A stretch of 64,000 nucleotides of DNA, taken from positions 62,001 through 126,000 of the forward strand of contig JANXCQ010000006.1 of NCBI GenBank assembly GCA_025060195.1, read 5' to 3'. The notes under the pieces were generated by a model. That model did not search any database, was not told the origin of the DNA, and worked only from the letters and a program-made list of their open reading frames with translations. This document shows positions 2,713 through 63,051 of the stretch, in pieces. The translations under genes were made by a program, and so were the position numbers. The first letter of the stretch is position 1, and each line of letters begins with the position of its first letter. The stretch comes from Gemmatales bacterium. GTDB taxonomy: Bacteria; Planctomycetota; Planctomycetia; Gemmatales; HRBIN36.

Positions 2713-5421
2713 TTAGTCTTGCTCACTGGCGGGAGGAGTGCGTGTATGCTGGGGAAAAGCACGGATTAGGGGTTCCACACGCAAGTCGTCAAGGTAAACG
2801 CGGCCGAGGCCGGTCAACGCCATGGTCACCACGACGGAACCTGAAGCAGGCACTTTACGAAAGAGGGTGAACTTACGCCAGGGAGTCGCACTGGTGAGGC
2901 GGAGTGCCAAAGGTTCGCCCCCTATGGAATCATACAGTAACATGCCGTCAACGCTGCCTTGGATCGGTTCGGGAACGCGTAGCCAGGCACTGATACGTAT
3001 CCAACTTCCAGGCTGCAAAGCAACTGGCGGGCTAACCAGGCCCAAATAAGTACGTTCCAGAGCGGCAGGGCGCTGATGAGGATTCTTTGGCCGCACTTCG
3101 AGCAACCAGCACGACCGCCCTTCCTTGGGTTGTTCAGTCGAGAACTCTGCTCTCATTTCAACTGCGTCGAGACTAGCCTTTTGCACCTGCCAACCGTGTA
3201 ACAAACCTGACGATGGAATCTCAAACCCGCCGTTCTCCAACAAGTTCGGGCCGACACGCGCACGGCGTATTTCCGCGACCGCTTGCCAGAATTCGGGCAG
3301 CGTGTCAAAAGCTACTGCAAACGGTAGGCAGACAGGATAATCAAGCAGCCGGACTGCCTGTTCCCAAAGTCTTCGCCTGCTGAGGCGAAGTAAGCGAAGT
3401 GCCGCTTGGCTTTGCGACCATGCCTCGAGATAGTCTAGTTGGCCCGCACGAAGCAGGGAGGCACGCGCCCGCTCCAAATGACGGCGTGCCTGATCCAAAT
3501 AAAGCCGGGTAACGCTATCAGAGAGTTGCAGCGACTGAAGTCGAGCTACTACGGACTCAGTGCGCGTGAGTTGCTCAACCCCCAGGTCATAAGCCCATTG
3601 CGCTGCCAAGTGCCTATATCGGGTGTTGGTCGCCTGAAGCTTCTCGACCATCCGTAAATCGGAGGTAAAAACCACAAGCGTGGTGAGATTGAACTCGGGG
3701 AGGGTCACCCTGACCCCACCGCCGACGCGTTCCGTGCGTAAAGCCCGCACTTGGCCAGCAGTAACTTCCCACGCTTGTGCGTCTTCGGGCACCGTTGGAA
3801 TAACTATCTGAGTGCTCTGGAAAGAGGATTGGCCCGGTACGTATTGTCCGCCAGGCCCTGTCCAAACAATCAGCGCAAGCAGCCCGGCATCACTGCGTAG
3901 GATGGCAGTCAGCAATTCAGAATGACGTTGCGGCAAAACGGTGCATTCCCGGGCCGTGGCTAAGAATGCTTCCACCATTTCCAATTCAAGATTGAGAAGA
4001 GCCAGTTGAAGTAGGCGAGCCCGTGCCAACTCTGGATCGCCAAAAGTGTCATCGGCCCAAAATGCCAGACCACGGTAACCTGCCGCTAAGGCCAGCCATG
4101 TGAGAATTCGAATGTGTTCGGGGTCAATGCTCTTGGCCGGAAACGACTGCGCAAACTCGGCCCTCATCCAATTTGGAGCATGACATTGAATCCAGGTAAA
4201 AAGGAAAGTGCCGGGGTCGGCCAAGCGGCGGCGGTGTACCAGCCAGTTGTGGTAATCCTGCAACTCGAGACCAGTATGCAACGGCCAACGGTAGGTGCCA
4301 AGCAAATCTACTTGCCGCGAATAGTCGCGCAAACCGTCCCAAGCTTCTAAAGCTAATAAAGATCGATTTCTACTGCGGAAGTCCTTGACGAAGCGGCTGA
4401 AGGATTCACCTTGCTCCGCCGACCAACCACTTCCTAGGTGCCAGGCAAGGATATTTTCGGCGAGAGCCAAACGTTCCATTTGCCGCGCAAAATTTCCGGC
4501 CACCTTGCCTTCAGCCCCAAGGCTTTCTACCAGACCAGGCCAAGAGGGTACCAACAAGAAACCGAGTTCTGCTGCTTGCCGCAGACGCTCGTCACTGGTA
4601 TCCGTTGGCACGAGCAAGGCATTGAAGCCAGCATCGCGTAACACCTGTAGCGGAGTCCCCGTGTCGCGCACGAGCCGCAATAGAAACGCTTTGTTGTTTA
4701 GATGAAGACGCTCCTGAAAAATCTCCACCCGCTGCACCACACGAACCTTGCTGGTGGGAACTGCCGTAGGCTGGGGGCCGTCGCCCGGTGATTGAGCAGG
4801 GCCAAACGTCTCACTCCAGAGCGGTCCGACTTCCAAGTCATCTATCCAAATCTCATGTACACCAGGCCCGCTATAAATGTTAAGCACGACTTGGTCAACA
4901 TATGCATCCTCGAAATTGACCTCACGAGCTAGTTCCTGCCGCAGCAGCCTTTGCACCTCCCGCACGCGTTGCGAGACTTGACGCAATTCCAAGCGCTGCC
5001 AACGTCCGACCAGTTCGTACGTATCGCCACGTAGTAACGTTGTTAGGGGGCGGTCAAGATTCTGTGGATCGCGTTCACGAGGCATGACTAACCGGGCCAT
5101 TAGCTGCGCCCCAGGACGGTTAGCTTTCACCCACACGCTCAAGGTCAATTCATCCAGTAGCACGGCTTTGCCAATGGGGTAGTAATAATGGATAAAAGTC
5201 CCCTGTTCGGCTTGAAGGCGGATATGTTCAGATTGGCGCCCCGAGTGGGCGGTTTGTGTGGTACGCTCGTGAATCCATTCTCGATGGGTAACGTCCGCCA
5301 GTCCTTTACGCCAAGCTGTTGTTGGCCCCTCGAAGCCATCGCGATGCACGTGGAGCATACTTTGAGCGGCCAAACCTAGTGCGGTCACGCTTGCGGCTAA
5401 CGTCATCGCCCAGCGAGTCAT
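2713..5421 (-). CDS. Large exported protein with glycosidase-like central domain and flanking CBM-like domains
   Basis: Protein of 902 residues. Residues 1-19 (MTRWAMTLAASVTALGLAA) form a signal peptide, so it acts outside the cytoplasm. An N-terminal beta-rich segment (about 20-200) with HSGRQSEHIRL and ends such as EIWIDDLEVG reads like a carbohydrate-binding jelly roll. A second such domain occurs at the C-terminus (ENGGFEIPS to VYLDDLRVEP). The middle has TIM-barrel-like stretches (VLRDAGFNALLVPTD, ILAWHLGSG, AGYRGLAFWADD) as in glycoside hydrolases, but no catalytic acid pair can be named. A helical region lies between. A family could not be assigned, so polysaccharide binding or hydrolysis is inferred. 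The start is fixed by GGAGG four bases before ATG 5421. Confidence 0.55.
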   Translation of the reverse strand: MTRWAMTLAASVTALGLAAQSMLHVHRDGFEGPTTAWRKGLADVTHREWIHERTTQTAHSGRQSEHIRLQAEQGTFIHYYYPIGKAVLLDELTLSVWVKANRPGAQLMARLVMPRERDPQNLDRPLTTLLRGDTYELVGRWQRLELRQVSQRVREVQRLLRQELAREVNFEDAYVDQVVLNIYSGPGVHEIWIDDLEVGPLWSETFGPAQSPGDGPQPTAVPTSKVRVVQRVEIFQERLHLNNKAFLLRLVRDTGTPLQVLRDAGFNALLVPTDTSDERLRQAAELGFLLVPSWPGLVESLGAEGKVAGNFARQMERLALAENILAWHLGSGWSAEQGESFSRFVKDFRSRNRSLLALEAWDGLRDYSRQVDLLGTYRWPLHTGLELQDYHNWLVHRRRLADPGTFLFTWIQCHAPNWMRAEFAQSFPAKSIDPEHIRILTWLALAAGYRGLAFWADDTFGDPELARARLLQLALLNLELEMVEAFLATARECTVLPQRHSELLTAILRSDAGLLALIVWTGPGGQYVPGQSSFQSTQIVIPTVPEDAQAWEVTAGQVRALRTERVGGGVRVTLPEFNLTTLVVFTSDLRMVEKLQATNTRYRHLAAQWAYDLGVEQLTRTESVVARLQSLQLSDSVTRLYLDQARRHLERARASLLRAGQLDYLEAWSQSQAALRLLRLSRRRLWEQAVRLLDYPVCLPFAVAFDTLPEFWQAVAEIRRARVGPNLLENGGFEIPSSGLLHGWQVQKASLDAVEMRAEFSTEQPKEGRSCWLLEVRPKNPHQRPAALERTYLGLVSPPVALQPGSWIRISAWLRVPEPIQGSVDGMLLYDSIGGEPLALRLTSATPWRKFTLFRKVPASGSVVVTMALTGLGRVYLDDLRVEPLIRAFPQHTRTPPASEQD

Positions 5422-5425
5422 TTCG

Positions 5426-5430
5426 CCTCC
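5426..5430 (-). promoter_or_regulatory. Shine-Dalgarno GGAGG deciding the start of the 902-residue exported protein
   Basis: GGAGG lies four bases upstream of ATG 5421. That ATG opens directly into a signal peptide, whereas the longer frame (to 5511) would bury the signal peptide behind 30 unrelated residues. Confidence 0.75.
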
Positions 5431-5666
5431 CGGCCTAAGCAGGTGTTCCCTATGGGTAATCGAACAAATCCGAGTGGGAATTCGGGTTCCTGGCTCCGCG
5501 ATACATAGCAATTGCCATGGTTTAGGGGAAGATCAGCCCTTACATAGCAGCCAAAGACGCAGGCAGGGCATCGCTGGGGAACGACCATCGTGCCCCCTAC
5601 ATCATGGAGGCGGTGGGTACGGACCTGCAGTTCTGGTGGCTCTGGCAGGAACCAATCTGGTTGCCG

Positions 5667-6650
5667 TTAGATCGTACGCACAAACTTGTTGGTGAGATCC
5701 AGATGGAACTGTTTTCCTGTTTGGATTTGCAATTCTTTGCGAGCGTCCTATTATATCGTGGGTTTTTGATTAGGCCGAACACAGGGTATGGCATCATAGA
5801 CACATCTACGACGGTGAGGATTCAGGCCAGGAACGACGTTTGCTGGCCCCCCAAACCCGCAGGATAATTTTGTCCTTCCCATCATTCATGGTGATGACGA
5901 ATCGCGTGGGACAGTTGTGGCTGCCTAAGCATGGGGCTAACGATTTGCCCACGCCAGATAGGGTGTTGCATGCCTAGCGAATCCTTGGCTGGCTACAACG
6001 GTAGCGTCTCATGCAGCAACGGTGGGGAGCACCTAGCTTCCCAACCTCATGGACTCGTGCTGCGAACCTAAGCGCCACTAAACGCAGCGCTGGCAGCCGC
6101 TGGATGCGACTCAGCGTCTTCGCAAGACAGCATAACTTCCGACAATGGCTGAACATCATGAGATCCTAAAGGCTTATTTGCGGTTACCGGTACTTACGAG
6201 GCCTGGATACCATTTTCGATCTCATGGCGTGCCATCAGCCGGGGGCAGGATTGCACGTTACGAATTTAGCGCCTCCGTTGCTTTTCGTGCTGTACTTTTT
6301 GAACTCGCTGGGTAAGCGCTTGACGAAGCGCTTCAGTGTCTAGGGGTTTGTGAAACACCCTTCCACAGTCAGACCCAAATAATCTAGGAGCATGGACATA
6401 CTATCACGGACACTGCGACTCATAACCAAGGATATCACTTCGGGCCATTCCCGACGTAACTTTTCCAAAAGCGATAAACCATCCTGCTTTGGGCGGAATC
6501 GCATCACTCATCCCAATTGGCTTCAGCCTCTGGGCAAACAATTTCAAGGCTTATTCGGCGCTGGCCGCTCCCTGTGTTGGGATGTGCTAGTACTCGCAAA
6601 GAATTTGCCGCGGTTACCGGATGTTCGTACCGTCTTCCACCTAACTGAAT
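5667..6650 (-). pseudogene. Decayed RpfG-type response regulator (CheY-like receiver followed by HD-GYP domain)
   Basis: No open frame survives, but joined minus-strand frames give a recognisable protein. Receiver part (about 6650-6266): ALKLFAQRLKP, then QDGLSLLEKLRREWPEV, then after a frameshift VFHKPLDTEALRQALTQRV with the conserved Lys-Pro, ending at a stop at 6266. HD-GYP part (about 6190-5667): a helix ending RVHEVGKLGAP at 6037-6057 (canonical LHDIGKxGxP), then LSHAIRHHHE, stop, WEGQNYPAGL (canonical HHERWDGxGYPxGL), then a stop and ILTVVDV, and after another shift ARKELQIQTGKQF. The order and a linker of about 25 codons match RpfG-type cyclic-di-GMP phosphodiesterases. Several stops, at least three frameshifts and the loss of HD and GYP residues show it is dead. 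The upstream boundary is uncertain. Confidence 0.7.
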
Positions 6651-7102
6651 AATAAGAGGATAAGCGCTATCTCTTGTGTTGTGAACCGTTGGCCAAGCCT
6701 AACGATTTACTCTGCAAACTTACCCTTGAGCTAGTTAATATCTTGGGACGGAGTCGCGTTGAATATCTCTTTGGCTAAGTCGTAATTACAAAGTAGTGGA
6801 GGCAGTCTGCCCGCACATTGCAGTATGTTGCGTCTCATGAGGCATACGTCCCGCTAAACCACAGTGCGCCCAGCGTTCGCAGCCGACTTACTAACTGCGT
6901 TGCTTAGCCTGCCTACTCCCTTCGGTAATATGAGAGTAGCGATTATCACGAAAGCGGAGGAACAAGGCTCCATCTCGGCATTTTTGTTAATAATGACACA
7001 ATCATCACGGCGTGAAAGGCCATAGGGGATGTTCTCCCAGTGCAAATTGTATCCGTTCCGAACGTGAGCCGATATCAGTTTGTGGACTCGGAGGACTAAC
7101 TT

Positions 7103-7900
7103 ATGGCGAGAGCGAGCTTCTGCGGTACTGGGTTAAGCTGGCTCGCGAGCTTAGTTTTGGTGCAGGGCTGTCATTGCTTGGGGTGGTATCATTATCACAA
7201 TTGCCATGTCTACCTGGGTACGCCGCCAGGAACTAAGACCTATGGGTTCGGGTGGTGGACAGGCTGGCCCTATGTCCCTGGTACTCCTCATGCGCCCGCC
7301 TGGTCAATACCCTTAGTTACCGCACAATACGGGACTCCCTTTTCACTAAGCGACGGCAGTGTCTCTTCAAACAATGAACCAGCACCTATGCCGCGCTTGC
7401 AGGAAGAGCCCAATAGATCTTCGCCACCCGACGGCCCAAGCCAAGACATATTGATTCCCCCTCCCCGCAAAGCATCCCCTCAATCGGAGGCCCCACCACC
7501 CGCACCGAATTCTTTTCAGGGGGATAGCAGGAATTCTTACCCCCAGTCACAGGCCTTACACCTGGAAATAGTCAGTCCCCCACAAATGACCCTTGAGCAG
7601 ACCGCCGAGCTACGTATCGTGTTGTCCAACCGCAGCGACCGAAACCTGCAGGATACAGAAGTCATCTTACACCTACCACGAGTGCTGCGAGCCCAGTCAG
7701 CACTGCCTACTCCCCACGTGCAAGACCAGCAAGTCATCTGGAAGCTCAACTCTCTCGGGCCACATGTCCGCGAGATTTTCACCGTTCAGCTCAAAGCTCA
7801 TAACACCGCTAGTGCCGCGGTATGCCACGTCAGCGTACTCGCTGCGGATGGTAATGGAGCTGCTTCGAGCTGTTCCATCCGCATCATTCCCGCGGAGTAA
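7103..7900 (+). CDS. Exported proline-rich protein with C-terminal DUF11/CARDB-like beta domain, possible lipoprotein
   Basis: Protein of 265 residues preceded by GGAGG eight bases before the ATG. A hydrophobic N-terminus (SWLASLVLVQGC) ends at Cys23 in a lipobox-like context, so it may be a lipoprotein; the Gln at -2 is unusual. Residues about 95-150 are rich in Pro, Ser and Gln and probably form a flexible spacer. The last 110 residues (LEIVSPPQMTLEQTAELRI, SDRNLQDTEVILHLP, REIFTVQLKAH) read as an Ig-like fold of the kind used in envelope adhesion modules. The gene stands alone, pointing away from the decayed response regulator. The function is unknown. Confidence 0.6.
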   Translation: MARASFCGTGLSWLASLVLVQGCHCLGWYHYHNCHVYLGTPPGTKTYGFGWWTGWPYVPGTPHAPAWSIPLVTAQYGTPFSLSDGSVSSNNEPAPMPRLQEEPNRSSPPDGPSQDILIPPPRKASPQSEAPPPAPNSFQGDSRNSYPQSQALHLEIVSPPQMTLEQTAELRIVLSNRSDRNLQDTEVILHLPRVLRAQSALPTPHVQDQQVIWKLNSLGPHVREIFTVQLKAHNTASAAVCHVSVLAADGNGAASSCSIRIIPAE

Positions 7901-52784: not shown

Positions 52785-53060
52785 TCATAAAATCTCAGCG
52801 CTCGTGATCGTAACTTGGGCGCTGGTGGGCAGGTCAGCGCAGCCGGAATAATCAACAACCATGGTCAGGGAGCCGTTGATGTGCTTAGCCCGATGAGAGC
52901 CTCCTGCGTATGAAACGGGGGGCCTATATCGCGCGATAAGCGTTGTGCCTATCGCGTAGCTGGCCGCGGCGTTGTATGGGGTGCTGCCTACCAAAGTTAT
53001 TTGCTGGCTTGAATGAATAGCCTTCTTTGCGGTTGCGTAGGTTGCGGAACAGCAGGACAA
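52785..53060 (-). CDS. Unrecognised 91-residue reading frame, possibly the remnant of a larger exported protein
   Basis: The frame has natural composition, with LVGSTPYNAAASYAIGTTL, YRPPVSYAGGSHRA and SLTMVVDYSGCADLP, and ends in a normal stop. There is no Shine-Dalgarno and no signal peptide at the listed start, and no family is recognised. The Ala/Ser/Thr-rich beta-like pattern suits the C-terminal end of an extracellular protein. It may be a fragment of a decayed gene, since the next stretch upstream holds another pseudogene on the other strand. Confidence 0.3.
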   Translation of the reverse strand: MSCCSATYATAKKAIHSSQQITLVGSTPYNAAASYAIGTTLIARYRPPVSYAGGSHRAKHINGSLTMVVDYSGCADLPTSAQVTITSAEIL

Positions 53061-53071
53061 GCGGCCATCCC

Positions 53072-53829
53072 GTCAGCACTAGCAGCTGTAACTCAGTTTC
53101 TTGGAGGTCGAACTGTGGATATCGACCATGTGGCTGAGAAAAGTAATCTTGCTGGCAGGTAAATACGCAGATTACATGGCAAGAGTTGGTGCCATTCATC
53201 CGAAAGTGGAAAGCTTACCCAGGTACTCTTAGAAGCCATCCAATACCACATGGACCTATCAAAGCGCCCAATTGTTCTACCCAAGCGGTTTCTCCGAAGT
53301 ACGTCGGTTGGAAAATCGAATTGCGCGTAGTGATGGGCAAACGATGTGGGCACAATTCAGCAAGGGAAGCATTGCAGTAAGTCGCGGGCTACACCAGTTG
53401 CAACGAGGTTTCTGACCGACGTTTCCGCCTCAACTCCAAACGCAAGCCACGCGATAACGACGCCTCCTTTGGTTGGCTGCATGGCAAGTAGCACGATACA
53501 TTTCTGCTTTGCGGCCCACGCGTGCGCTTTGCCCATGTGGCTACCGATCCGCAGAAGCTCCGCCTCCGCTTGTGTGTGTCCAACGCCAAACCACGTAAAA
53601 CGCTTGTACATGCCGGATGAATTTCCCAGGGCCGCTCTCGTTTCGATTCCTTCCAGGTTTATCATTTTTGGAGCCTCGCGACTTGATTTCAACTGGAACA
53701 TTTGCTGGCGTTAGCGCAGCATCCAAACACCTCGATATTCTCCTTAGGCCCGGCGACCTGGTCGAGTGCGAAATTGAGTTTATCGGCATCCTGCGCAATC
53801 CTGTCATTTGCGAAACCCGATCCCGATAA
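53072..53829 (+). pseudogene. Decayed fumarylacetoacetate hydrolase (FAH) family gene
   Basis: Joining plus-strand frames gives an almost complete FAH-family protein in the right order. VILLAGKYADYMARVGA matches the 'GxNYxxHaxE' start. CSTQAVSPKYVGWKIELRVV and MGKRCGHNSAREALQ match the metal-binding 'DwEvELavVIG' region. Then come GYTSCNEVSDRRF, GWLHGK (stop) HDTFLLCGPRVRF, TDPQKLRLRLCVSNAKP, and after frame changes LEPRDLISTGTFAGV, LLRPGDLVECEIEFIGILRN and PVICE with a normal stop at 53829. At least three stops and several frameshifts are present, and metal ligands are lost (Asp-Trp-Glu is now Gly-Trp-Lys). The intact ancestor would have hydrolysed an acylpyruvate-type C-C bond. The upstream limit is approximate. 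Confidence 0.8.
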
Positions 53830-56510: not shown

Positions 56511-59189
56511 ATGGTCGAGCGGCTCCAGGATTTCGACCCTGTGGAGACGCAAGAATGGCTAGATTCACTAGATGCTGTCTTAGAAGCTCGCGGGGCTGCG
56601 CGGGCACAATTCCTGGCCGAGCGCATTGTCGAACGGGCCCAGCAACGCGGCGTGCCGTTACGCTTGGGCTTCACCACTCCTTATGTCAACACCATCCCCG
56701 CAAGCGAAGACCCGCCTTATCCTGGCGACCGGGTTCTAGAGCGGAGAATTTCTAGCATCATCCGCTGGAACGCTATGGCCATGGTGGTGCGGGTTAATCG
56801 GAAGTATCCTGCCGTGGGCGGACATATTGCCACCTTCGCTTCTATCGCCAAACTCTATGAGGTCGGCTTTAATCACTTCTTCCGCGGCAGCATCGACAAA
56901 GAAGTTGGCGACTACGTTTATTTCCAAGGCCATTCCGCTCCAGGTATCTACGCCCGCGCTTACCTGGAGGGTCGCATCTCCGAGGCACAGTTAGAAAACT
57001 TCCGCATGGAACTCTTACCCGGCGGCGGATTACCCTCCTATCCGCACCCCTGGCTCATGCCGCATTTCTGGGAGTTTCCCACCGTGTCCATGGGACTTTC
57101 CCCTATGATGTCCGTGCAGCAGGCACGTTTCTTGCGCTACCTCCAACATCGCGGCATCGCCGACACTTCGAATACGCGCGTCTGGTGTTTCCTCGGCGAC
57201 GGTGAAATGGACGAACCCGAATCCGCGGGGGCGATTTATCTGGCCGGTCGCGAAGAATTGGACAACCTCATCTGGGTGGTTAATTGCAATCTCCAACGGC
57301 TCGACGGTCCAGTACGGGGCAACGGTAAGATCATCCAGGAACTGGAAGCGCTCTTCCGCGGCGCGGGTTGGAACGTCATCAAAGTCATTTGGGGCTGCGA
57401 TTGGGACCCCTTGTTGGCTGCCGATAAAGACGGTCTGCTCGTGCGTCGCATGAATGAAGCAGTGGACGGTGATTACCAGAAATACGCGGCTTCCGATGGA
57501 GCCTATATTCGTCAGCATTTCTTCGGCAAATATCCACCGTTGCTCAAACTGGTCGAACACCTCAGTGACGAGCAACTACCGCGCTTACGGCGTGGTGGCC
57601 ATGATCCCGTCAAGGTGTACGCGGCCTATAAACGGGCAGTTGAACATCGCGGCCAGCCTACAGTCATCCTGGCGAAGACCATCAAGGGCTACGGTCTCGG
57701 TGAAGCGGGCGAGGCACGCAACATTGCTCATCAGCAGAAGAAACTCGAAGAGCAACACCTCCGCGAGTTCCGAGACCGCTTCGACTTGCCCATTCCCGAT
57801 AGCAAGATTCCTGAAGTTCCCTTCTACCATCCCGGGCCGAAGAGTCCCGAGGTGGAATATCTCCTCGAGCGACGTCGCGCTCTGGGGGGATTTTTGCCGC
57901 GGCGCGTCATGCGAGCCGCTCCGCTGCGGGCACCGTCTTTGGAACTTTTCCAAGAATTTCTCAAAGGTTCCGGAGCAGGTCGGGAAGTCTCCACGACCAT
58001 GGCCTTCGTGCAGATGCTCAATCTGCTGATGCGCGACAAGACCATTGGCAAACTCATCGTCCCCATCGTGCCCGACGAGGCCCGCACCTTCGGCATGGAT
58101 GCGCTCTTCCGACCGTTCGGTATCTATTCCCCTAAAGGCCAGCTGTACGAACCCGTAGATAAAGGCATGCTCATTTACTACCGTGAAGCAACAGATGGTC
58201 AGATTCTCGAGGAAGGCATCAACGAAGCGGGAGCGATGGCCTTGTTCACCGCGGCGGGAACTACTCCGGCTCTGCGGGGCATCAACACGATTCCCTTTTA
58301 TATCTTCTACTCCATGTTCGGCTTCCAGCGTGTCGGCGATTTCATCTGGGCCAACGCCGATTCGCGTGGCAAAGGTTTCCTGATGGGCGCGACTGCAGGA
58401 CGCACCACGTTAGCAGGCGAAGGTCTGCAACATCAGGACGGTCACAGTCACGTTCTCGCCTCAACTGTGCCGAACGTTCAACCCTACGACCCTGCATTCG
58501 CGTTTGAGTTAGCGGTCATTATCCAGGACGGCATCCGCCGCATGTATGAACTCCAGGAAGACATCTTCTACTACATCACGCTTTACAACGAGCGTTATGA
58601 GATGCCACCTATTCCAGACGGTGAAAAGGTGCGCGAAGGCATCCTGCGCGGTCTCTACAAATTCCGCCCTGCCCCCCGCCCCTCCCGGCGCGCACTGCGG
58701 GTTCACATACTCGCCTCAGGGCCGATGGTCGTCGAGGCCTTGCGCGCCCAGACCATGCTCGATGAACAGTTCCACATTCAGGCCGACGTCTGGAGCGTCA
58801 CCAGTTTCGTCCTGCTTCGCCGCGAGGCCTTAGAAATCGAGCGCTGGAACTGGTTACATCCTGAAGCCCCACCTCGCAAGCCTTATATCACCCAACTTAT
58901 GGAGGCGGAACCCTGGCCCGTCGTCGCCGTGTCCGATTACATGAAAATACTACCCGACGGCTTGGCCAAGTGGGTCCCGCAAGGAATTTTTTCCCTGGGC
59001 ACCGACGGTTTCGGACGCAGCGCCGACCGACCAATGCTGCGACGCTTTTTCGAAGTGGATGCAGAATCCATTGTGTTGGCCGCGTTATACCAACTGGCGC
59101 GAGCGGGCAAACTGGAAACGCGCCGGGTCACCCAAGCGATGAAGCAACTCGGCCTCGACCCCGACAAACCCAACCCTGCCGCTTGCTAA
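56511..59189 (+). CDS. aceE: Pyruvate dehydrogenase E1 component, homodimeric type
   Basis: Protein of 892 residues, close to the 887 of the E. coli enzyme, decarboxylating pyruvate with thiamine diphosphate and passing acetyl to lipoyl-E2. The ThDP/Mg motif is FLGDGEMDEPESAGAI (about 227-242), with LIWVVNCNLQRLDGPV completing it. Other AceE landmarks are the N-terminal DFDPVETQEWLDSLDAVLE, YFQGHSAPGIYARAYLEGR, IVPDEARTFGMDALF, EGLQHQDGHSHVLAS and ITLYNERYEMPP. The genes for E2 (aceF) and E3 are not in the window, which is unusual since they commonly follow aceE. The two lipoyl-carrier-like genes at 13-17 kb are unlikely partners since they are H-protein-like. Confidence 0.96.
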   Translation: MVERLQDFDPVETQEWLDSLDAVLEARGAARAQFLAERIVERAQQRGVPLRLGFTTPYVNTIPASEDPPYPGDRVLERRISSIIRWNAMAMVVRVNRKYPAVGGHIATFASIAKLYEVGFNHFFRGSIDKEVGDYVYFQGHSAPGIYARAYLEGRISEAQLENFRMELLPGGGLPSYPHPWLMPHFWEFPTVSMGLSPMMSVQQARFLRYLQHRGIADTSNTRVWCFLGDGEMDEPESAGAIYLAGREELDNLIWVVNCNLQRLDGPVRGNGKIIQELEALFRGAGWNVIKVIWGCDWDPLLAADKDGLLVRRMNEAVDGDYQKYAASDGAYIRQHFFGKYPPLLKLVEHLSDEQLPRLRRGGHDPVKVYAAYKRAVEHRGQPTVILAKTIKGYGLGEAGEARNIAHQQKKLEEQHLREFRDRFDLPIPDSKIPEVPFYHPGPKSPEVEYLLERRRALGGFLPRRVMRAAPLRAPSLELFQEFLKGSGAGREVSTTMAFVQMLNLLMRDKTIGKLIVPIVPDEARTFGMDALFRPFGIYSPKGQLYEPVDKGMLIYYREATDGQILEEGINEAGAMALFTAAGTTPALRGINTIPFYIFYSMFGFQRVGDFIWANADSRGKGFLMGATAGRTTLAGEGLQHQDGHSHVLASTVPNVQPYDPAFAFELAVIIQDGIRRMYELQEDIFYYITLYNERYEMPPIPDGEKVREGILRGLYKFRPAPRPSRRALRVHILASGPMVVEALRAQTMLDEQFHIQADVWSVTSFVLLRREALEIERWNWLHPEAPPRKPYITQLMEAEPWPVVAVSDYMKILPDGLAKWVPQGIFSLGTDGFGRSADRPMLRRFFEVDAESIVLAALYQLARAGKLETRRVTQAMKQLGLDPDKPNPAAC

Positions 59190-59191
59190 AG

Positions 59192-59286
59192 GCTCTTGTC
59201 CCCGTACTGGCTTGACGAGTGCACGGTATTACTAACAGGTCATCGACCTGCGAATTGCGATACGCTCTTATCCCCGTAGTGGCTTG
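59192..59286. repeat. Direct repeat of 23 bases with 72-bp period downstream of aceE
   Basis: GCTCTTGTCCCCGTACTGG plus CTTG at 59192-59214 recurs with two changes at 59264-59286, 72 bases later. The first copy begins just after the aceE stop. Similarity between the two units decays downstream. Confidence 0.6.
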
Positions 59287-59289
59287 CCT

Positions 59290-62100
59290 GGGACACTCTC
59301 TAACAACTTAGCCGAGACACTCCAATCTGCTAACTTTCAACCGCAACGCTAATTTGTAGCAAACGGTTTCTTGTAGCGTCCACCGTAACCTCCGCAATGT
59401 CGCACCAGCATACCATCGCTGTAAAAGAACGTGTGAGGGCTGCAGCTAAGTGGCAACTCCCAGATACAACCCGAGAACCTGCAAGCTGGCCAGAACGATT
59501 AGTCCCTAGCACGCCGAACTAATAATATTCCAGTGTTTAAATCCATTTAGCATGGCTCCCCTTCTAACGTCCGTCCGTAGGATCGTCATTAGAATATATT
59601 CGCGTAACTAGTTTAGAGACTAAACGAGAGGCGGCCCGGTAGGAGCAGATATTGAAACTAGAACTACATCAACTACTGCGCGACTGTTAGACTAACAAAC
59701 ACTATCGGTTCACCTCACAGTACATGATTAATCCGGCTTCTTCAATTTGGCTAATTTCAATGGGAAATGCCTATCTGAGATAAGTTCGTACCTGAACAGC
59801 TCTGACCCAATATTCTAGCATCATAACTAGGGGCATTAAGGGCTCGCGATCACCTAGTATAGTAGCTAAGATAAGCGGTTACCCGATGTAGATTGAAAAC
59901 TCATCAAAGTCGTGGCTAATTATGTACTCGCGGTAGCATGCGATACATGCTGTTCCCGTAGCTAGAGACCGTGGACACATTCGTCTCCGCCGTCAACACC
60001 TCTAAGCCTGCCTCAGAATGTAGCCAGATCTCTGCTAAAGCATCATAAGTCTTTTGTACTCGATGCACGAAAGCATCAGTTCCCTAGTGCGCTTGTCAGG
60101 ATATCAAGGCTAAGTATGGACACTGGCCCCGCCAGGATGTGCCGTAAAAGAGCATGATGGCTCACCTCATACCAACAAGGTAACTAAAATCAAAGCGCGC
60201 GTTCATGTGGCAACCATCGATACCGAAATAATGTTAGGGGCTAACTTGCGTTCGTTAATGCCGCTCCGAAGACGAGGCAAGAATGATCGCGAGGGATCAA
60301 TTGCGTCCGTAATCTTAATCCGCCCGGACCGTTTCACTTCTCTGTTCATCCACGTTGTAACGACCAATAACAGCCCCAGGCCTAAAGATGCCGCGATAGT
60401 GACCAAGGCGTCGAAGCCCATGTTGACATCCAGCCAGCGCTTGCGCACCGCGGAACTCACGATTTGCCCAGCCTCCAACGCGCGAACCTGCGGCACACTT
60501 GGCGAAGGGATGTTAGTAGACCCCTGGTGCGATGACTAGTGACCATAGTGCGGCCAAACTTTACGACCTTGAGAAAGGAATAGAAAAACTCAATGGCCAG
60601 AATTGAGAGGCCAAACCTCAGTAGAGGCAGACTCAGGCTACGACGGCATTCCACCTTTGCTCGTCTAGGCTTTAGAGAATTGATAAGGAGGGTTAACGAC
60701 ATCTAACTCGCCTGAAGGCGATGCCCTAGCCGGGTTCATGGCCGACTCTGCTCTTCTAAATGCTCGCAAGCAAGACGAAGCTTAACTAGTACAACACGCC
60801 CTAAACGTGAGAGGCACTGTGAATCTTAGGCATATCGGATCATGCTAAATCGCGAATCTAGCACTGGGCTAGTACACTGTGTCTGCGGGCGAAATAGCAT
60901 TCGCCGCAACGCCACGGAGCACCTTAGGCTTGCCCGTCTAGTGCATAATGAGCAATCCACGACCGACTATTGGTCAGCATTGCAATAATAACAGGACTAA
61001 CCATAAGCGAAAATAAACATGAGTCCGCCTGGGGATGCTAGTTCCATTATGACGTTTTGAAATAATCCTGGTGTTAGGACAGTGATGTTAAGCGTCCATG
61101 ACCCGGCTAATCTTGCACAGAGTCTAATGAATGCTAGATATCTCAGACAGAAATCCTCTATAGTTCCCTTAGATCATAATAATATTGAGACTAATCCTAT
61201 AGTGGCCTCTATCGTCTCTAAGAGTATTTTCGCTCTGGTCTTTAGAACTTCAATTACATCAAGCTAGCAAGGGCCAAACGGGTTTCGTCCTTCTCTTAGT
61301 AAGCACGCGGCTTCCTTAGAAGCTGCATGCTTAGTATCACTCTGGATTCGTCTGGGTAGTGCCCAGTCTTAAGTATTAGATAAAGCGTGGATTGTACGAA
61401 TTGATGCAGAGGGTCGCAAACCAACGCCGATGGAAGCGGATTTATGATACTAAGAGCGCCACGGATGCGATACGTGTTGGCTCGGGATTTTCGATACAGC
61501 TGTCGGTGATAATGGACTTGTCAATAACGTCCATTAGCCCGTGAGCCTTTCTCTGTGTATATCTAAAAAGCCTGTGATTTTATACTTTGGACGAACCGGG
61601 AATTATCTAGTTGTCGTAGAGGGAGCCGGGTCATTTGGTGTTATATATGCCGAGACATGGCTAGCAATGGAATAGGTTTAGTACGTTCCTTGACCCAAAC
61701 CAAACGGGGTGTCCGCTGTCATAATTGACGGATGACAGATGCAAGTTCCGGGAAGCGGGGCGTCATTAGCTGATCTGCATCGGTTGTTATGCCATATTAT
61801 ATGGACGAGCAGGATCTGGCCGTTAGAAAGCAATGCGTGATAAGCTATCAAGTGTGTGTTATCCCTGGGAGGCTGCTTAAACGACAAGTACGAGTGATGG
61901 AAAGCAGGGCCAGCCACCAACAGGGCACGACTTTTCCCAAAGATGGGGCACACACTAAGGGGTGGGCTGGGGATGCGTTCAGGACAAGCTGACAGATTAC
62001 CGCTTTTGTGAATGGTCTCAGGACGAAAGGGCTGCATTCCCGATAACGATATGCTATAAACTAATTACTCGCGACTTTTTCGCTGGTCGGCGACGGACCA
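59290..62100. other. 2.8-kb gene-free stretch with AT-richer sequence
   Basis: No credible gene. By eye it is more AT-rich than the flanks and full of CTAG, TTAG and CTAA words, and stop codons are frequent in all frames. One possible membrane-protein fragment lies at 60203-60420 on the minus strand: MGFDALVTIAASLGLGLLL then VVTTWMNREVKRSGRI. It loosely resembles the N-terminus of MgtC/DUF4010-type membrane proteins, but this cannot be supported further. No RNA gene was recognised. Confidence 0.5.
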
Positions 62101-62626
62101 TCAGACGAGGTGAGCGTGTTGGGCATGGTCAGGCTCGCATCAACGCGGTCTGAGCTGGCGCGGTGAACTGATTGGTTACATACTTACCCTTCGGCACTGT
62201 GGTCGCAGGCCCATCCACGTGGGCTGCGTTGGCATAGCGATCTGCTTGGCTACATACTTCCCCATCAGCGGTAGGACCAGAGCGCAGCCACGTGATCGAA
62301 GCTAAAAAGATGAACTTCTTCCTTTCACCGTTGCTCGTCAACGGCAGGCTTAGGTGTGTATCCGCGTGATCTAGGCTGGGGCGGCGAACTGGCTGGTTAC
62401 GCACTTTCCAATGAATCATAAAGTCGGGCGCGCATCGGCGTGGTCGGTGCTGGGGCGGAGAGAGTGAGAGTGAGCGGTTGCGCACTTCCCAAGCGGCGGT
62501 ATGGTCAGGCCTGCGCCCGCGTGATCTGCGCTAGGATGGCGGATCGTTTGGTTACGTACTCCCTAAGCGATGACGTGGTCAGGGGGAGCCCATCCGCGAG
62601 CATTGCGCTGGTGAGATGGGGGAGCA
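62100..62626. repeat. Tandem array of about seven degenerate 74-bp repeats
   Basis: The anchor GGTTACGCACTTCCC recurs at 62174, 62248, 62395, 62476 and 62550 (spacings 74, 147, 81 and 74), with a degenerate unit between 62248 and 62395 and another before 62174. Each unit then has a GGTCAGGC-GCGCATCCGCGTG block and ends in GATCTGCGCTGGGGCGG. Conservation runs through the whole unit rather than in a short core, so it is a satellite-like tandem repeat and not a CRISPR array. A 74-base unit would shift frame at each copy, so it is not coding. Confidence 0.75.
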
Positions 62627-62714
62627 TCATGTGAACATTTCCTCATCTTAGTGAAGCACGCATTTGTACTGGATTTTCTTCAGGTGTACCTTGCTAACGG
62701 GACGCGAGTTGCTT

Positions 62715-63051
62715 AGGGGTCGGTTACTGCTTTGGGGGCAGGTGTTACTTTGGCGCTGGCTATGGCTTCGGGGGCGGTGGCTCCTGCCGAGGGAGTTGAT
62801 TCTGTGGTCGTGATTCTTGGTTCAGGAAAGGCGCTTGCTTGGTGGCTGGTTGACCTTTTAGCGCCAGTTGCTGCTATGGGCGATGGCTCTTGCTTCGGAA
62901 ATGGTTCTGCTTTCGGGTGGTTTGCTACCTCGAGGATTGTTACTGCTTCGGCGGCAGTTGTTGCTTTTGTCGGCGGCACTTCCCTCGAGGGTAGTTCTTG
63001 CTACGAGGGCGGTTGCTCGCTCAAAAGCAGTTGTTGCTTTGGCGCTGGTTC
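62715..63051. repeat. Degenerate 18-bp repeats just downstream of the TPR gene
   Basis: Plus-strand units resembling TTGTTGCTTTGGCGGCGG recur about 18 times, most spaced 16-21 bases. Read on the minus strand in continuation of the TPR protein, the units give Pro-, Lys-, Gln- and Glu-rich peptides (EPAPKQQ, SEQPPS, HPKAEPFPKQEPSP) interrupted by stops. It therefore looks like the former low-complexity C-terminal tail of that protein, now cut off. Open frames here on both strands are products of the repeats. Confidence 0.6.

Follow-up and report, generated by a model that had tools for sequence, protein, structure and literature searches.

A probable unitary pseudogene of an RpfG-type HD-GYP response regulator in an apparently empty gap of a Gemmatales genome

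Does a 1.59-kb gap without a long open reading frame, lying between two conserved genes of a Gemmatales genome, represent regulatory DNA or the remains of a gene? HD-GYP proteins degrade cyclic di-GMP (c-di-GMP), and a first-pass annotation of the 64,000-nucleotide stretch of DNA analysed here (the window) had placed in this gap, at 5667-6650, a dead RpfG-type response regulator, with receiver and HD-GYP motifs in the correct order on the minus strand but dispersed over several frames with stops. We conclude, with a probability of about 0.97, that the segment is a unitary pseudogene, derived from a response regulator of the c-di-GMP phosphodiesterase type, that was inactivated after the species represented by the window and its sister species split.

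The minus strand from 5511 to 7103 holds no open frame of at least 80 aa. A frameshift-tolerant protein-to-DNA alignment with an intact sister protein, the type of search proposed as a check in the annotation, nevertheless recovered an HD-GYP response regulator, collinear over 6676-5619 of the minus strand, with 164 of 352 positions identical (47%) and a score of 735 as compared with 44.4 +/- 5.2 (maximum 56) for 40 dinucleotide shuffles. The same query scored 53 on the opposite strand and 83 on the best other 1.7-kb chunk of the window, and the receiver and HD-GYP halves were each significant in separate alignments (Table 1). The span that had been proposed is essentially correct, the remains reaching 6676 at one end and at least 5619 at the other (5549 under a softer frameshift cost), and the counts of stops and frameshifts were unchanged across frameshift costs of 9-18. 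The Pfam HD_5 profile (PF13487) also matched the minus strand at 5804-5998 across three internal stops (E = 2e-6; 28.8 bits against a curated cut-off of 27.2 bits), covering profile positions 70-134 despite these stops, and the match was reproduced when the stops were masked. In a six-frame, stop-tolerant search of the same genome, HD_5 was found in five places, the remnant among them. DNA-level searches with the gap gave nothing outside its own genome in 40 relatives and no match in plasmid records, because decay and distance hide the homology at the DNA level.

Table 1. Features of the locus (window coordinates; L056, locus of the sister genome)
Feature	Position	Strand	Evidence or remark
Intact 932-aa Gemmatales protein, downstream neighbour	2713..5511	-	71% identical in sister
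RpfG-type (receiver + HD-GYP) response-regulator pseudogene, near full length	5619..6676	-	frameshift-tolerant alignment to sister gene L056:3880-5028(-)
HD-GYP-domain part of remnant (sister residues ~168-330)	5697..6187	-	score 454 vs null 42 +/- 6
Receiver-domain part of remnant (sister residues ~18-124)	6317..6643	-	score 245 vs null 37 +/- 5
Intergenic spacer, outside dead gene	6677..7102	.	alignment with L056 5029-5440
Conserved 265-aa protein, no Pfam match, upstream neighbour	7103..7900	+	synteny marker on other side

The intact counterpart is encoded by the Gemmatales MAG SKYG129 (genome G001), the one congener compared, on the 16,410-base contig JANWVZ010000078.1. This gene is open, encodes 382 aa, and lies on the same strand as, and directly upstream of, the ortholog of the 932-aa gene. 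Its product contains Response_reg (E 1.8e-17) and HD_5 (E 1.2e-37, full-length match) in one polypeptide, the arrangement that characterizes RpfG-type proteins, and keeps the HD pair, the HHExxDGxGYP motif and the acidic pocket of the receiver. The window and the sister genome (L073) share the gene order 7103-7900 gene, HD-GYP gene, 932-aa gene, tsaE and sigma factor, the last two names being assigned by eye from sequence, so that comparison with a relative, also suggested in the annotation, placed the intact gene between the same neighbours. Homology, the common locus and the intactness of the ortholog are direct observations. A tree of HD-GYP domains groups the remnant with the SKYG129 gene alone (support 100/100), apart from all paralogues, and the other HD-GYP genes of its own genome score at most 150 against it. 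The remnant has an intact ortholog at the syntenic locus and no other 1:1 counterpart in its own genome, the combination by which a unitary pseudogene is recognized. The gene was probably present in the common ancestor, judging from SKYG129, the shared synteny, and related genes at other loci in genomes G004, G005 and G028. The receiver-HD-GYP genes of these three genomes are not claimed as orthologs, as they were not found beside the 932-aa gene and fall outside the pair formed by the sister gene and the remnant.

Compared with the sister gene, the window copy contains 13 in-frame stops and at least five frameshifts. The changes of HD to HE and of GYP to NYP reported in the annotation are read in the remnant: HDVGK of the sister is HEVGK, and HHERWDGKGYP is HHE(stop)WEGQNYP, with a stop immediately after HHE. 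The copy thus has neither the HD metal-ligand pair nor the HHExxDGxGYP loop of the HD-GYP domain, and its two domains, although correctly ordered, are spread over several frames; it is a relic of the family and no functional member. These motif changes do not by themselves prove inactivity, because the HD-GYP protein PmGH tolerates alanine changes in GYP with hardly any reduction of activity, the Asp of HD being essential (D222A) (PMC4159591). Inactivity is proven, at the level of the sequence, by the stops and frameshifts. Losses at conserved positions are likewise observed directly: of the 66 residues that do not vary among four intact relatives, 41 (62%) survive in the remnant and 25 (38%) are replaced, as compared with 44% of variable residues kept. 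The remnant differs from the sister by 0.32/0.30/0.64 at codon positions 1/2/3; the corresponding values are 0.25/0.13/0.62 in the adjacent gene and 0.08/0.03/0.52 in the next conserved one, with dN values (NG86) of 0.39, 0.20 and 0.05, respectively. Stops, lost invariant residues, and raised dN and second-position change together are the signature of relaxed selection. The better retention of invariant than of variable residues and the greater change at third than at second positions indicate that part of the divergence accrued under selection, a pattern in keeping with a gene that died after the split and not with one that never died.

We propose that the common ancestor with SKYG129 would have carried, immediately upstream of the 932-aa gene and in its orientation, a gene for a stand-alone response regulator that joined an N-terminal phosphoacceptor receiver to an HD-GYP domain of the c-di-GMP phosphodiesterase type at the C terminus. 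The ancestral protein probably hydrolysed c-di-GMP, as suggested by knowledge of the family and the intact motifs of the sister gene. In the window lineage, selection on this gene would have been lifted some time after the species split; stops, frameshifts and replacements would since have gathered while nearly the whole length was kept. The remnant makes no functional protein. The release from selection may fall very roughly within the last 20-65% of the branch leading to the window lineage, an order-of-magnitude figure only, as the timing model is crude and third positions are near saturation.

Comparison with known systems helps to describe what was lost. The SKYG129 gene resembles the window copy in locus, neighbours and domain order and differs in being intact. 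The ortholog has the domain architecture of the RpfG family (Xanthomonas RpfG, Thermotoga TM0186), and by analogy its predicted activity is that of a phosphorylation-controlled c-di-GMP phosphodiesterase, whereas the window copy yields no functional protein; unlike that family, the inspected locus has no recognized rpfC or rpfF beside the gene. The HD-GYP domain of PmGH (PDB 4mcw) is matched by the sister protein (E 4e-26) with HD and HHExxDGxGYP kept, but the match stops short of the receiver. The sister protein also has Thr at the position of the PmGH metal ligand E185 (by eye, PMC4159591), and because of this replacement it would fall outside the E/D-T-G (trinuclear) subgroup.

The genome still has four other open HD-GYP genes (an FHA-GAF-HD-GYP, a 430-aa HD-GYP, a divergent member and a Ser/Thr-kinase-receiver-HD-GYP fusion) as well as two GGDEF genes, and therefore c-di-GMP signalling as such has not been lost; one branch is gone. 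The view that this lineage has lost a c-di-GMP output gene accordingly stands for that branch and does not extend to the pathway. Besides the dead gene, no stand-alone receiver-HD-GYP gene was found in the draft genome, and the loss may have been neutral or tolerated since other HD-GYP proteins remain. The kinase-receiver-HD-GYP fusion is located at L003 10-2100 (contig C46) and proteins of comparable length (781 aa or longer) correspond to it in relatives.

The description of the gap as a gene graveyard rather than regulatory DNA holds for part of it: the dead gene takes up about 1.06 kb, or about two thirds, and a spacer about 0.4 kb. The spacer beside the 7103 gene is similar in length in the window (~0.42 kb) and the sister (~0.41 kb), is partly alignable, and is probably ordinary promoter or leader DNA. 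As far as the tools used can tell, it would be ordinary intergenic DNA rather than further dead genes. An Rfam search of the gap (E up to 1) and of the whole window gave no match, and scans found promoter- and terminator-like sites in the gap at chance level. On the other side of the remnant, the 932-aa gene probably starts at about 5421; its product has no Pfam family match and is kept in 30 of 31 Gemmatales genomes. The sister genome has a 1.45-kb stretch without a long open frame between its 935-aa gene and tsaE (L073 4858-6311), with no Pfam match in six frames; its counterpart in the window is only 127 bp.

These data bear on three other explanations. The remains could have been retained for a different function, such as a leader or promoter region of the 932-aa gene or a source of short peptides, as their nearly full length and the co-oriented, conserved downstream gene might suggest; since neither a significant structure family nor an excess of promoters nor a conserved open frame was found, and the changes look like decay, we consider this improbable, though about 100 bp next to 5511 may have room for such a role. 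Sequencing or assembly errors in an intact gene are a natural concern in a 126-contig metagenome-assembled draft, but are very improbable as the source of so many stops, frameshifts and replaced invariant residues, all within 1.06 kb; random errors this dense would also wreck the neighbours, and the 932-aa and 518-aa genes alongside are open and align over their whole length. That the gap, which does look empty of long open frames, is regulatory or non-coding RNA DNA resembling HD-GYP by chance is equally hard to credit against a score more than 100 standard deviations above the shuffles, two collinear domains, an intact gene at the same locus, and the Rfam and promoter/terminator results above.

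The unitary pseudogene is a case of ordinary gene loss, clearly demonstrated. It documents a specific case, inside one planctomycete genus, in which a c-di-GMP output gene was lost, and provides a paired intact/dead locus that is usable for measuring neutral decay. Annotation based on open frames only overlooks dead genes of this type, while profile-based counts of HD-GYP proteins can take them in, as the remnant passes the Pfam cut-off.

Elsewhere in the window, 59186-62732 comprises 3.5 kb without an ORF of at least 150 aa, in which neither Pfam (six frames, stops masked) nor Rfam gave a match. A second near-full-length pseudogene, of an FAA hydrolase, is located at 52864-53814 on the plus strand, with 10 in-frame stops and seven frameshifts, and aligns with an intact 322-aa sister gene (L116) at a score of 737 against 43 +/- 5. 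The lineage could conceivably bear many old near-full-length pseudogenes through unusually slow deletion of dead DNA, a rather doubtful idea hinted at because both dead genes in the 64 kb are nearly full length (~1.06 kb for ~350 codons and 0.95 kb for 321 codons); two examples are too few to establish it. The FAA hydrolase gene of the sister lies at a matching distance from a common Gfo/Idh neighbour (G000:C93:111799, G001:C177:22675), and its place apparently matches that of the remnant.
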